Source of the DNA: Campylobacteraceae bacterium
GTDB lineage: Bacteria > Campylobacterota > Campylobacteria > Campylobacterales > JALSKU01
Length of the DNA stretch: 44,579 nt
Reading direction: 5' to 3'
Assembly (NCBI GenBank): GCA_026993075.1
Contig: JALWUQ010000064.1
Span: 1 to 44,579 of the forward strand
Of this stretch, positions 22,534-25,939 are shown piece by piece. Positions within the stretch are counted from its first letter, which is position 1. Every line of letters begins with the position of its first letter. The notes below the pieces were generated by a model. That model made no database searches. It had not been told where the DNA came from and was given only the letters and a program-made list of their open reading frames with translations. A program made the position numbers and the translations under genes.

Positions 22534-22566
22534 TATAAATGCCTATAATCTATAAAAGGGTTGGTT

Positions 22567-22911
22567 ATGAATATATTTAAGATTTATATAAAAGATTTAA
22601 AAATAGATGTTATTATCGGAATTTTGGATAAAGAGAGAAAAAATAAGCAAAAAATAATCGTAAATGCTGAGATAGAATATGATTTAGATGGTCATTTTTT
22701 GGATTATGTACAAGCTCTTGAAGCTATTAAAAATCTTTTGGAATATAAAAAATATGATACTTTAGAGAATGCAATAAGCGGCATATCCAAAGCTTTAAAG
22801 TTAGATTTTCCCGAGATTATTAGTATAAAAATTAAGATAGACAAGCCCGAAGTTTTTAAAAATACTTTAGTAGGAGTAGAAAACATCAAAAGATATTCGG
22901 ATATAAAATGA
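22567..22911 (+). CDS. folB: Dihydroneopterin aldolase family protein FolB
   Basis: 114 residues from the ATG at 22567, chosen because AAAGGG lies seven bases upstream; an in-frame TTG two codons earlier has poorer spacing. The protein reads IKDLKIDVIIGILDKERKNK, as in FolB (active-site region with I-G-I..ER..Q), then IIVNAEIEYD. It cleaves dihydroneopterin in folate synthesis. The last residues IKIKIDKPEVF match the family's closing strand. Its TGA stop overlaps the ATG of the MutS-like gene (ATGA), so the two are translationally coupled. Confidence 0.88.
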   Translation: MNIFKIYIKDLKIDVIIGILDKERKNKQKIIVNAEIEYDLDGHFLDYVQALEAIKNLLEYKKYDTLENAISGISKALKLDFPEIISIKIKIDKPEVFKNTLVGVENIKRYSDIK

Positions 22912-24440
22912 ATGAATTCAAAAGTATTCTTTTTGATGATTTTGGGCCTGAATTTAAAAAAAGTAAACTCCATTCTTGTGTTTATAAAGATTTAAATTTA
23001 GATCAAATTATTTCAGCAATAATTTCTTCAAAAAAAGAGTATGATTTACAACCGTTTTTTTACACTCCCCTTAAAAATAAAAAACTTATACTTTATCGTC
23101 AAAATATTATGAAAGACCTTGAAAAACAGTCTATTTTTGATATTTTCAAAGAGTTTGAAGCAGATTTCAAAATGCTCAAAGAGTCTTTGGAAAATTCAAA
23201 TAAGTTGAATTTTATATACCAAAAAGCAAGTTGGTTTTTAGATGCTGTATTATTGTATTCTGATTTACTCAAAAAGTTTTTTAAAAGTATTTCCAATGAG
23301 ACATTACATTCACAAGGATTGCTTTCTTTTCGTTTGTATTTAGGAAAGTATTTAAAATCCGATAAATTTATCTCTTTATCCTTAAGTGCAAAAAATTTAG
23401 ATATAAAATTAAAAAAAATTCGTTATTGTCTGGATATGCAGGGCAGTTGCATAAAACTTGAACAATTTAGCAATCAAAAAAATTATGAGGAAGAGATAGA
23501 AGTTTTTTTTAAAAGATTTACAAAAAATGTTAAAGATGATTATAAAGTAGAATTTGATGATTATTTGGATTTAAATCATGTTGAAGAAAAAGTAGTAAAA
23601 ATGCTTTCAAAACTGTATCCTGATAATTTTTATGAGTTAGAAGAGTTTTATAAAAATAATTCTAATTTTATGAATACGACTATACAGGTATTTGAAAGAG
23701 AAATACAATTTTATATATCATTTTTGGAATATTTAAAAATGATAAATCAAAATGAACTGTCTTTTTGTTATCCAGAGATTTTGACTGATAAAAAAGAAGT
23801 ATTTGGCAATAATGTATTTGATATGATGCTTGCTTCAAAAGCTACTAAGAATGATATTAAAATCGTTCGTAATGACTTTTATCTTAAAAATCAAGAGAGG
23901 ATTATAGTCGTTACAGGACCAAACCAAGGAGGAAAAACAACTTTTGCAAGAAGTGTGGGAGAGCTTTTTTATTTTGCAAGCTTAGGTTGCAAGGTAGCTT
24001 CTTCAAGTGCCAGAGTATATATGATTGACAGCATTTTTACACATTTTGAAAAAGAAGAAGATATAACAAATCTAAGAAGTAAGCTTGAAGATGATATTTT
24101 TAGAGCTAAAGAGATATTGGATGAGGCAAGCCCTAAAAGCTTGGTTATAGTAAATGAAATTTTTACTTCAACAACCTTAGAGGATGCTACGGCACTTAGT
24201 AAAAATATATTGGATATTATAATAAAAAAAGATTTATTTTGTGTATGGGTAACTTTTATAGATGAGATATCAAGATTTGATAAGAGGATTGTAAGTATGG
24301 TTTCACAGGTTGATACCAATAATCATGAGAAAAAAACATATAAAATAATAAGACATTTTGCTGATGGAAAAGCCTATGCTATGGCTATTGCAAAAAAATA
24401 TTCTCTTACTTATGAAGATATTGTAGGTCGTATCAAATGA
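22908..24440 (+). CDS. MutS-like ATPase A (no mismatch-recognition domain)
   Basis: 510 residues. Residues about 1-290 are helical and resemble the core/lever region of MutS proteins without the N-terminal mismatch-binding domain. The C-terminal ATPase has Walker A TGPNQGGKTTFARS (G337 to T345), a MutS-type stretch FTHFEKEEDITNLRSKLEDD, and Walker B SLVIVNEIFTSTT, where the usual Asp before Glu417 is Asn416. The histidine of the usual FITH motif is also replaced (WVTFIDEI). Length is about 60 percent of MutS1 and no Smr nuclease domain is present, so it is neither classic MutS nor MutS2. It is linked by ATGA overlaps to folB before it and to a second MutS-like gene after it, suggesting a two-protein complex. 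Its function is unknown. Confidence 0.85.
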   Translation: MNEFKSILFDDFGPEFKKSKLHSCVYKDLNLDQIISAIISSKKEYDLQPFFYTPLKNKKLILYRQNIMKDLEKQSIFDIFKEFEADFKMLKESLENSNKLNFIYQKASWFLDAVLLYSDLLKKFFKSISNETLHSQGLLSFRLYLGKYLKSDKFISLSLSAKNLDIKLKKIRYCLDMQGSCIKLEQFSNQKNYEEEIEVFFKRFTKNVKDDYKVEFDDYLDLNHVEEKVVKMLSKLYPDNFYELEEFYKNNSNFMNTTIQVFEREIQFYISFLEYLKMINQNELSFCYPEILTDKKEVFGNNVFDMMLASKATKNDIKIVRNDFYLKNQERIIVVTGPNQGGKTTFARSVGELFYFASLGCKVASSSARVYMIDSIFTHFEKEEDITNLRSKLEDDIFRAKEILDEASPKSLVIVNEIFTSTTLEDATALSKNILDIIIKKDLFCVWVTFIDEISRFDKRIVSMVSQVDTNNHEKKTYKIIRHFADGKAYAMAIAKKYSLTYEDIVGRIK

Positions 24441-25939
24441 ACTCATTTTTGATGTATAGAGATAAAGATTTTGATGTAGAACAAGAGTTATGTTTAAACG
24501 CTGATATACTTATAGATGATTTGGAGCTTAAAACTATATTTGAAGCTGCGGCACAAGAAGATGAATTTATTCAAAATGTAATGAGAGTTGCTTTGCTTGG
24601 AAGTTTGAAAAGTATTGATGATATAAAATACAGACAAGATATCCTTAAAGATGTAATAAATAATTTTGAAGTGATAAAACAAATATATTTATTAAATGTT
24701 GAAGCAATTGAGCAGGAAAAAAGTATATTTTTCGCATTTTTCAGGAAATATCCCGATGTGATACTCAGTAGTTCTATTAAAAGGGTTGAAACATCTATTA
24801 GATATATTAAAAAGATAAAAGATATATTAAAAGTATCTTCAAGTCGATTTAAATCTGAGGGTTTGAGAAATCTGATAAAAATATTAGATAATGAATTAGA
24901 TGATTCATATATTAGTCAAATTGAAGTATATTTAAAAGAACTTCGCCTAAGAGATGGGGTTTTTATGTATTTTAAACTTGGCAAGGGTATGAAAGGGCAA
25001 AATTATACTCTTTATAAAAAAAACAGAAAATATTATAATTGGTTTCAAAAAATATTTCGAAATATCATCATAGGGATTGATACTAATTTTAGATTTTGTA
25101 TTGATTCAAGAGATGAAAGTGGAGCTAGAATATTATCGCAAATGAGAAATCAAGGTAAAAATTCTGTCGCAAATACTTTAGCACTTACAGCCGATCATTT
25201 AAAATATTTTTTAAATACCTTAAGAAGTGAATTAGCATTTTATATCGGAAGTTTTAATATTTATAAATTTTTAAATGAATTAAGTGTAGATGTAGTTTTT
25301 CCTGTAATGTATGATGCAAATATGAGGGTTGAAAATTACAAATCACTTCGTGATATAAGTTTGATACTTACTAAAAAAGAGAGTGTTGTAGAAAATAATT
25401 TACAAACAAAAGATAAAGAATTATTTGTGATAACAGGTGCAAATAAAGGAGGTAAGACTTCTTACTTAAGAAGTGTTGCTATTGCCGGTCTTATGATGCA
25501 GTGTGGTATGTTTGTTGTAGCTGAGAAATTTGAAAGCAATATCAGTGATCAGTTTTTTACACATTTTAAAAAAGATGAAGATAATTCTTTAAAAAGTGGA
25601 AAATTTGATGAGGAACTTAAAAGAATGAGTGATATAGTCGAGCAAATAACACCAAATTCTTTGATGGTATTTAATGAGTCTTTTTCAGCAACAAATGAAA
25701 GTGAAGGTTCTTTTATAGCAACCCAAATAGTAAAAGCTTTTATACAGAAGAAAATAAAAATATTTTTTATTACTCACATGTATAGTTTTGCAGAGACATT
25801 TTTAGAAAAAAATTTGGAAAATACTATATTTTTAAGGGCAGAAAGAGATAAATCAGGCAAAAGAAGTTATAAGATAAAAGAGGGAATACCACTTAAAACA
25901 AGCTTCGGTGAAGATATATATAAAAAATTTTTTACCTAA
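24437..25939 (+). CDS. MutS-like ATPase B (partner of the upstream MutS-like protein)
   Basis: 500 residues. Same architecture as its upstream neighbour: a helical core, then an ATPase with Walker A TGANKGGKTSYLRS (G334 to S342), QFFTHFKKDEDNSLKSGKFDEEL, Walker B SLMVFNESFSATNESEG (again Asn413 in place of Asp, before Glu414) and a retained histidine in FFITHMYSF. The two proteins are similar in the ATPase part but clearly diverged elsewhere, as expected for a heterodimer in which the subunits play different parts. ATGA overlap couples translation to the first gene. No DNA mismatch-binding domain or nuclease domain is present. The role may be in recombination or DNA handling; this is inference. 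Confidence 0.85.
   Translation: MNSFLMYRDKDFDVEQELCLNADILIDDLELKTIFEAAAQEDEFIQNVMRVALLGSLKSIDDIKYRQDILKDVINNFEVIKQIYLLNVEAIEQEKSIFFAFFRKYPDVILSSSIKRVETSIRYIKKIKDILKVSSSRFKSEGLRNLIKILDNELDDSYISQIEVYLKELRLRDGVFMYFKLGKGMKGQNYTLYKKNRKYYNWFQKIFRNIIIGIDTNFRFCIDSRDESGARILSQMRNQGKNSVANTLALTADHLKYFLNTLRSELAFYIGSFNIYKFLNELSVDVVFPVMYDANMRVENYKSLRDISLILTKKESVVENNLQTKDKELFVITGANKGGKTSYLRSVAIAGLMMQCGMFVVAEKFESNISDQFFTHFKKDEDNSLKSGKFDEELKRMSDIVEQITPNSLMVFNESFSATNESEGSFIATQIVKAFIQKKIKIFFITHMYSFAETFLEKNLENTIFLRAERDKSGKRSYKIKEGIPLKTSFGEDIYKKFFT

Follow-up and report, generated by a model that had tools for sequence, protein, structure and literature searches.

The window analyzed here is the 44,579-nucleotide (nt) contig JALWUQ010000064.1 of a Campylobacteraceae bacterium (assembly GCA_026993075.1). 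It holds two adjacent genes on the forward strand that encode short MutS-like ATPases, referred to as P1 and P2 (Table 1). An original prediction, made from the sequence letters without database searches, had described two such ATGA-overlapping genes of 510 and 500 residues; the open reading frames (ORFs) confirm both, with a P1/P2 overlap of 4 nt in the window. We describe the active sites, relatives, distribution, and genomic context of this pair, and consider a role in the response to fluoride.

Table 1 Features of the P1-P2 locus in the window
Feature	Position	Strand	Basis
P1, first MutS-like ATPase, 510 residues	22908..24440	+	ORF; MutS_V; clade support 100/100; AlphaFold2
P1 Walker A, GPNQGGKTT, residues 337-345	23916..23942	+	motif read and alignment
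P1 signature, Ser391-Lys392 (Gly-Lys in the family) for MutS Ser668-Thr669	24078..24083	+	alignment
P1 Walker B, Asn416-Glu417, equivalent to E. coli MutS D693-E694	24153..24158	+	alignment, conservation
P1 Phe450 for MutS His728	24255..24257	+	alignment; Phe in 61/61
P2, second MutS-like ATPase, 500 residues	24437..25939	+	ORF; MutS_V; clade support 98/99; AlphaFold2
P2 Walker A, GANKGGKTS, residues 334-342	25436..25462	+	motif read and alignment
P2 signature, Gly388-Lys389 for MutS Ser668-Thr669	25598..25603	+	both invariant in 74 sequences
P2 Walker B, Asn413-Glu414	25673..25678	+	Asn in 73/74
P2 His447, kept (TH motif)	25775..25777	+	invariant in the P2 set
folB (PF02152)	22561..22911	+	local neighbor of P1; outside the conserved unit

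Active-site motifs

In the alignment with Escherichia coli MutS, the Walker B Asn of each protein falls on D693, the next residue, Glu, on E694, and the position of the lost His in P1 on H728. The Asn-Glu Walker B motifs had already been recognized in the original prediction, as had the His of the TH motif, kept in the second protein and lost in the first. Conservation was examined in 61 P1 and 74 P2 sequences. The Walker B Asn is present in all of the former and in all but one of the latter; the sole exception, the P2 of locus L076 (7688-9268), reads Asp-Glu and is either a natural revertant or the ancestral state. P1 reads WVTF at residues 447-450 and P2 reads FITHM at 444-448, and the His-to-Phe replacement is fixed in P1, making the asymmetry a constant property of the pair. 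Changes kept at such frequencies are not due to chance.

The signature motif is a second departure common to P1 and P2, which the original prediction had overlooked. The Ser668-Thr669-Phe670 signature of MutS, which extends to the ATP bound by the partner subunit, is aligned with Gly-Lys-Leu in nearly all P1 and P2 sequences; the P1 proteins of the window genus have Ser-Lys-Leu, and the window P2 has Gly-Lys-Phe. Lys392 of the P1 signature is invariant in the 61 sequences. No other MutS-type protein in the alignment (MutS1, MutS2, KamC, other short MutS, and HNH-MutS) has the Asn or the signature Lys; a frequent Asn in active MutS proteins, which would have spoken against the original prediction, was not seen among them. 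The Gly and Lys residues of Walker A and the catalytic Glu are strictly invariant in both proteins, which argues against decay of P1 or P2.

Domains, fold, and family placement

MutS_V is the only Pfam domain above the cut-off in P1 (E = 1.6e-21) and P2 (E = 5e-23). Pfam detects no mismatch-binding domain (domain I), connector (domain II), Smr, or KOW domain in either protein, in agreement with the earlier description of proteins lacking the mismatch-binding and Smr domains. The curated cut-offs of the known families are missed. P1 and P2 reach at most 83.5 bits with the MutS1 models (cut-offs 641.7 for TIGR01070 and 480 for NF003810), 72.5 and 71.1 bits with the MutS2 model (cut-off 400; the MutS2 of the same genome scores 512.8), and 52 and 77.3 bits with the KamC model NF052383 (cut-off 300).

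In the tree of the ATPase domain, P1 and P2 each form one clade (supports in Table 1), and the two clades are mutual sisters (100/98). The MutS2 clade (100/98) excludes both, and the pair is also outside MutS1. The tree program warned that some of the long branches could be joined wrongly; the warning touches the nearest other short MutS proteins, not the P1 and P2 clades. As judged from these sequences, the pair is neither MutS1, MutS2, nor KamC, and forms its own clade of two sister groups derived from one duplication.

The AlphaFold2 single-chain models have mean pLDDT values (the program's per-residue confidence score) of 86.5 for P1 and 85.0 for P2. Among solved structures, MutS, MSH2/MSH3, and MutS2 come closest; their TM-scores (normalized by query length) of ~0.5-0.6 fit a core and ATPase held in common and arms of different geometry. 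By sequence, the best solved match of P1 is the Thermus thermophilus MutS2 core (2.6e-18). One structural match, PDB 3k0s, is E. coli MutS D693N, the same substitution as that found in the Walker B motifs of the pair.

Three other assignments were rejected. The weak KamC match raised the possibility of a B12-enzyme reactivase, but membership is ruled out by a cut-off that is far off and by the standard motifs kept in true KamC; no lysine 5,6-aminomutase genes were noticed in the window or in the recurrent neighbor clusters, a genome-wide search not having been made. Phage defense is suggested only by weak local PADLOC matches to ATPase P-loops. The ~980-residue frames in sister Campylobacterales are not fused pairs but different MutS proteins with a standard Asp-Glu and a Cys/His (HNH-like) C terminus. 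MutS-like proteins of this length with Asp-Glu occur at locus L009 and in other relatives of the order (G010-G034); that of L009, read whole, ends in a Cys/His-rich, HNH-nuclease-like region.

Distribution and co-inheritance

A scan of GTDB genomes gave 80 loci in many phyla, including Bacillota, Chloroflexota, Spirochaetota, and Desulfobacterota, and in Betaproteobacteria. Both genes are present in 80/80 loci (the first gene of L078 is cut by a contig edge), usually with the 4-nt overlap. Four loci apparently without P1 (L111, L117, L119, and L139) turned out to be artefacts of ORF calling, with P1 present. The distance matrices of P1 and P2 correlate with r = 0.95, compared with 0.45 for the best of 2000 permutations. 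The tandem pairing is obligate, and independent occurrence of the two genes, which would have counted against the original prediction, was not observed. The pair is also carried by 45-48 plasmids, many of them conjugative, chiefly in Klebsiella, Citrobacter, Enterobacter, and Rhodococcus.

The pair is not a general trait of Campylobacterota, where it was found in 2/249 sampled genomes and 1/55 genera; within the sampled order, too, no second genus has it. Of nine genomes in the window genus, four carry it clearly, namely the window's own (G000), G001, G002, and G003, and G008 has a fragment at a contig edge. The G003 pair is near-identical to that of the window (96% and 94%).

Some copies are irregular. 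The P1 of G002 (L007:2976-4442) has an in-frame insert of ~40 residues that resembles translated non-coding DNA. Two genomes, G276 (contigs C4 and C119) and G468 (C12 and C30), have two copies of the pair each, one with an in-frame stop. On the Burkholderia plasmid NZ_CP073707.1 (L226, 8001-9504), P2 is annotated as two pieces, frame-shifted relative to the first. A human-gut phage record from a phage collection (MT837116.1) encodes a MutS_V-like region that shares 32% identity with P2 across 240 residues.

Fluoride riboswitch and gene neighborhood

The recurrent neighbors of the pair encode enolase, the fluoride exporter CrcB, a CLC channel, a CPA2 antiporter, UspA, and DUF190 proteins, and further a dynamin-type GTPase, an MFS transporter, and hydrogenase-4/complex-I-like subunits. 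Since this list matches the known regulon of the fluoride riboswitch, the riboswitch itself was tested. RF01734 is found above its curated cut-off in 46 of 50 pair-bearing genomes. In 300 genomes drawn evenly from Bacillota, the phylum of Thermoanaerobacter, 13 carry P2, and the riboswitch is present in 13/13 carriers versus 102/287 others (Fisher p = 2.5e-6, an optimistic value because the genomes are not phylogenetically independent). In nine of these carriers it precedes P1 on the same strand, at a coordinate distance of ~65-410 nt.

Riboswitch control is frequent across the family. Curated Rfam scans place the riboswitch directly upstream of the pair in 18/33 assessable loci. With a model built from our own hits, the count is 38/70, or 41/70 after correction of the P1 start; this model was partly trained on the same sites and a few of its matches are weak, so the Rfam figures are safer.

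The arrangement on the Klebsiella plasmid NZ_CP017986.1 (L225) shows the pair within a fluoride-resistance gene set. The riboswitch is followed by the antiporter gene, uspA, P1, and P2, and the opposite strand carries ppaC, uspA, eno, gpmA, and crcB. A knockout in Enterobacter cloacae FRM proved the role of the ppaC-uspA-eno-gpmA-crcB operon in fluoride resistance (PMC5533749). Such gene sets enclose the pair in many phyla. With little room for doubt, the pair family belongs to the fluoride regulon.

The L225 plasmid is conjugative and bears a fluoride-resistance island, in which P1 and P2 are annotated as DNA mismatch repair protein MutS. The gene for the dynamin-type GTPase (cluster c3, e.g., L089:10880-12652) stands beside the pair in 15 loci.

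The pair in its own genome

The genome containing the window has one riboswitch (42.2 bits, G000:C63:492-557), located before a NuoH/hydrogenase-4-like operon; in Pollutimonas and Candidimonas, the pair itself has an operon of this kind next to it. This riboswitch is the only one above the cut-off among 40 relatives of the order; the next best is in G003. CrcB is present in the genome and common in the order (35/40). The fluoride role is probably kept in this organism, though this is less certain than for the family.

In the window, the gene order is plsY-folB, then P1-P2. The coupling to folB in the original prediction is real in that the folB stop (22911) overlaps the P1 ATG (22908) by 4 nt, but it is local only: the pair has other neighbors in the sister genomes G001 and G002, and folB, not being kept beside it there, was rejected as a functional partner. 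A link to the two-component system that follows the pair was also rejected; the sole similar neighbor (L071) is 24-29% identical, as any OmpR-type pair would be. The only other MutS_V protein of the genome is MutS2 (G000:C5:32641-33177, L216), whose branch is very long (3.39); MutS1 was not found.

Discussion

We propose with moderate confidence that P1 and P2 constitute a heterodimeric MutS-like ABC ATPase serving the fluoride-stress response. Formation of the heterodimer is in itself very likely, as judged from the tandem pairing, the fixed asymmetry, and the way in which MutS proteins build composite sites. The original prediction had suggested a heterodimer with one strong and one weak ATP site. 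The matched pair stands, given the joint presence at all loci, the correlated distances, the sister clades, and the fixed His/Phe difference, but the division into strong and weak is not supported as given, because the Asn and the signature Lys are common to P1 and P2 and both sites are altered. The function, for which that prediction offered nothing, is narrowed to fluoride stress.

P1 and P2 would dimerize like MutS subunits, each ATP site being made of Walker A and B from one subunit and the signature from the other. With Asn where MutS anchors Mg and with Lys in the signature supplied in trans, both sites could lean less on tightly bound Mg2+, and the ATP switch would then stay working once fluoride ties up Mg2+. 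This weakened Mg2+ dependence is a tentative reading, drawn from the changed Mg2+-anchoring residue and the signature Lys in both subunits. The E. coli MutS D693N mutant reportedly shows weakened Mg2+ binding and incomplete switching. Fluoride exerts its effects largely through capture of active-site Mg2+ and Ca2+ (PMC11139923), and therefore a Mg2+-light site would suit a protein working under fluoride. ATP binding and hydrolysis would move the lever and clamp arms to remodel or release a client rather than to search for mismatches, a candidate client being a fluoride-blocked enzyme or ribonucleoprotein. We consider client remodeling the likely activity, rather than DNA repair, because the mismatch domains are missing, MutS1 and MutS2 are usually kept, and MutS relatives that are short or do not serve mismatch repair work on proteins (KamC, by its annotation) or on ribosomes (MutS2). 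In a more daring version, which we think unlikely, the pair would be a fluoride-proof motor: the Asn and the trans Lys would keep the ATPase switching while Mg2+-fluoride complexes poison ordinary phosphoryl-transfer enzymes, and the motor would reactivate fluoride-trapped metalloenzymes, for example enolase or pyrophosphatase, as KamC-type reactivases do for a B12 enzyme.

Several points weigh against this explanation, besides the optimistic p-value given above. The window contains no fluoride riboswitch at gathering or relaxed thresholds, the pair following plsY-folB there; G001 and G002 carry the pair and no riboswitch was detected in them; a gene-specific fluoride phenotype for the pair was not found; and the Mg2+ argument leans on work with the E. 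coli D693N mutant. In this organism, the pair might be a passenger gained by horizontal transfer that is now expressed with folB and has lost its tie to fluoride. The riboswitch-free window would fit, as would the patchy occurrence in the genus and the different neighborhoods in G000, G001, and G002. However, the reading frames and all motifs are intact at ~43% identity to the sister copies, and the genome keeps its riboswitch with the Hyf-like operon. We regard a mere passenger as rather unlikely.

The view implied at the discovery of the riboswitch is that of a true DNA-repair or recombination MutS heterodimer, an MSH4-MSH5-like clamp for DNA damage under fluoride stress. In the 2010 report, mutS appears as a DNA-repair gene downstream of the crcB motif, and a DNA-damaging stress is suggested (PMC2864571). 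The nearest solved folds, MutS and MSH2/MSH3, and the conserved tip region of P2, which is basic (mean net charge +5.4), agree with it. Contrarily, the pair has no mismatch-binding or connector domain, most carriers checked already own MutS1 and MutS2, and the neighbors are ion exporters and fluoride-sensitive enzymes rather than repair genes. Repair is improbable, and the DNA-repair label looks misleading, with survival under fluoride the likelier purpose.

Action on ribosomes, by splitting those stalled under fluoride stress, would parallel Bacillus subtilis MutS2, which splits stalled ribosomes via its core/clamp/ATPase part (PMC10897456). P1 matches the T. thermophilus MutS2 core in sequence (see above), and the MutS2 core gives a TM-score of ~0.6, but the pair lacks an Smr or KOW recruitment domain and lies outside the MutS2 clade, and carriers keep a separate MutS2; this role is quite improbable. 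That both subunits are ATP-binding, hydrolysis-poor sensors or scaffolds, slow switches with a signaling or structural role, would follow from the loss of the Walker B Asp in both, of the His in P1, and of the signature Ser/Thr, but is very improbable for proteins that, unlike degraded ATPases, strictly conserve Walker A and the catalytic Glu.

Export, pH control, and backup copies of the sensitive enzymes are the current explanations of fluoride resistance. A conserved ATPase of two subunits, controlled by the same switch, has carried a DNA-repair label since 2010. Treating the pair as a single family, marked by its unique paired active site, opens its role to testing and corrects a misleading annotation, as on plasmids where the copies are called mismatch repair genes. 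The pair is also a natural experiment on the Walker B Asp: the D693N change of 3k0s was made on purpose in the laboratory, and evolution fixed the same type of change in both subunits.

Comparison with known systems

Genes named mutS downstream of the crcB motif, the fluoride riboswitch, were reported in 2010 by Weinberg et al. (PMC2864571). They are riboswitch-controlled and of MutS type, as the pair is, and almost certainly represent the same family. They are listed there under DNA repair only, and the text consulted does not describe the two-gene composition, the Asn in Walker B, the Lys in the signature, or the fixed P1/P2 asymmetry. MutS goes unmentioned in a review on fluoride resistance from 2024 (PMC11139923). 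In the literature searched, mostly outside subscription papers, we found no study of riboswitch-linked MutS genes; one paper names fluoride, MutS, and crcB in passing. The operon tested in E. cloacae FRM (PMC5533749) lacks the MutS-like pair.

Among MutS-type proteins, KamC, the reactivase ATPase of lysine 5,6-aminomutase, is similar in its length of ~500 residues and its lack of mismatch-binding and Smr domains, and P1 aligns with it over most of its length; true KamC (L208 and L210) differs in keeping Asp-Glu, Ser-Ser/Thr-Phe, and Thr-His. MutS2 (B. subtilis; T. thermophilus core, 7vuf and 7vuk) shares the lever/clamp/ATPase core and a similar fold, whereas the pair has no KOW or Smr domain, belongs to a separate clade, and has another Walker B and signature. 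MutS1, MSH2-MSH3, and MSH2-MSH6 are likewise ABC ATPases with composite sites, asymmetric heterodimers in their eukaryotic forms; unlike them, the pair lacks domains I and II, and its carriers often have MutS1 too. Set beside these systems, what is new in the pair is its two-subunit nature, the paired changes in Walker B and signature, the fixed asymmetry, and the spread over phyla and plasmids.

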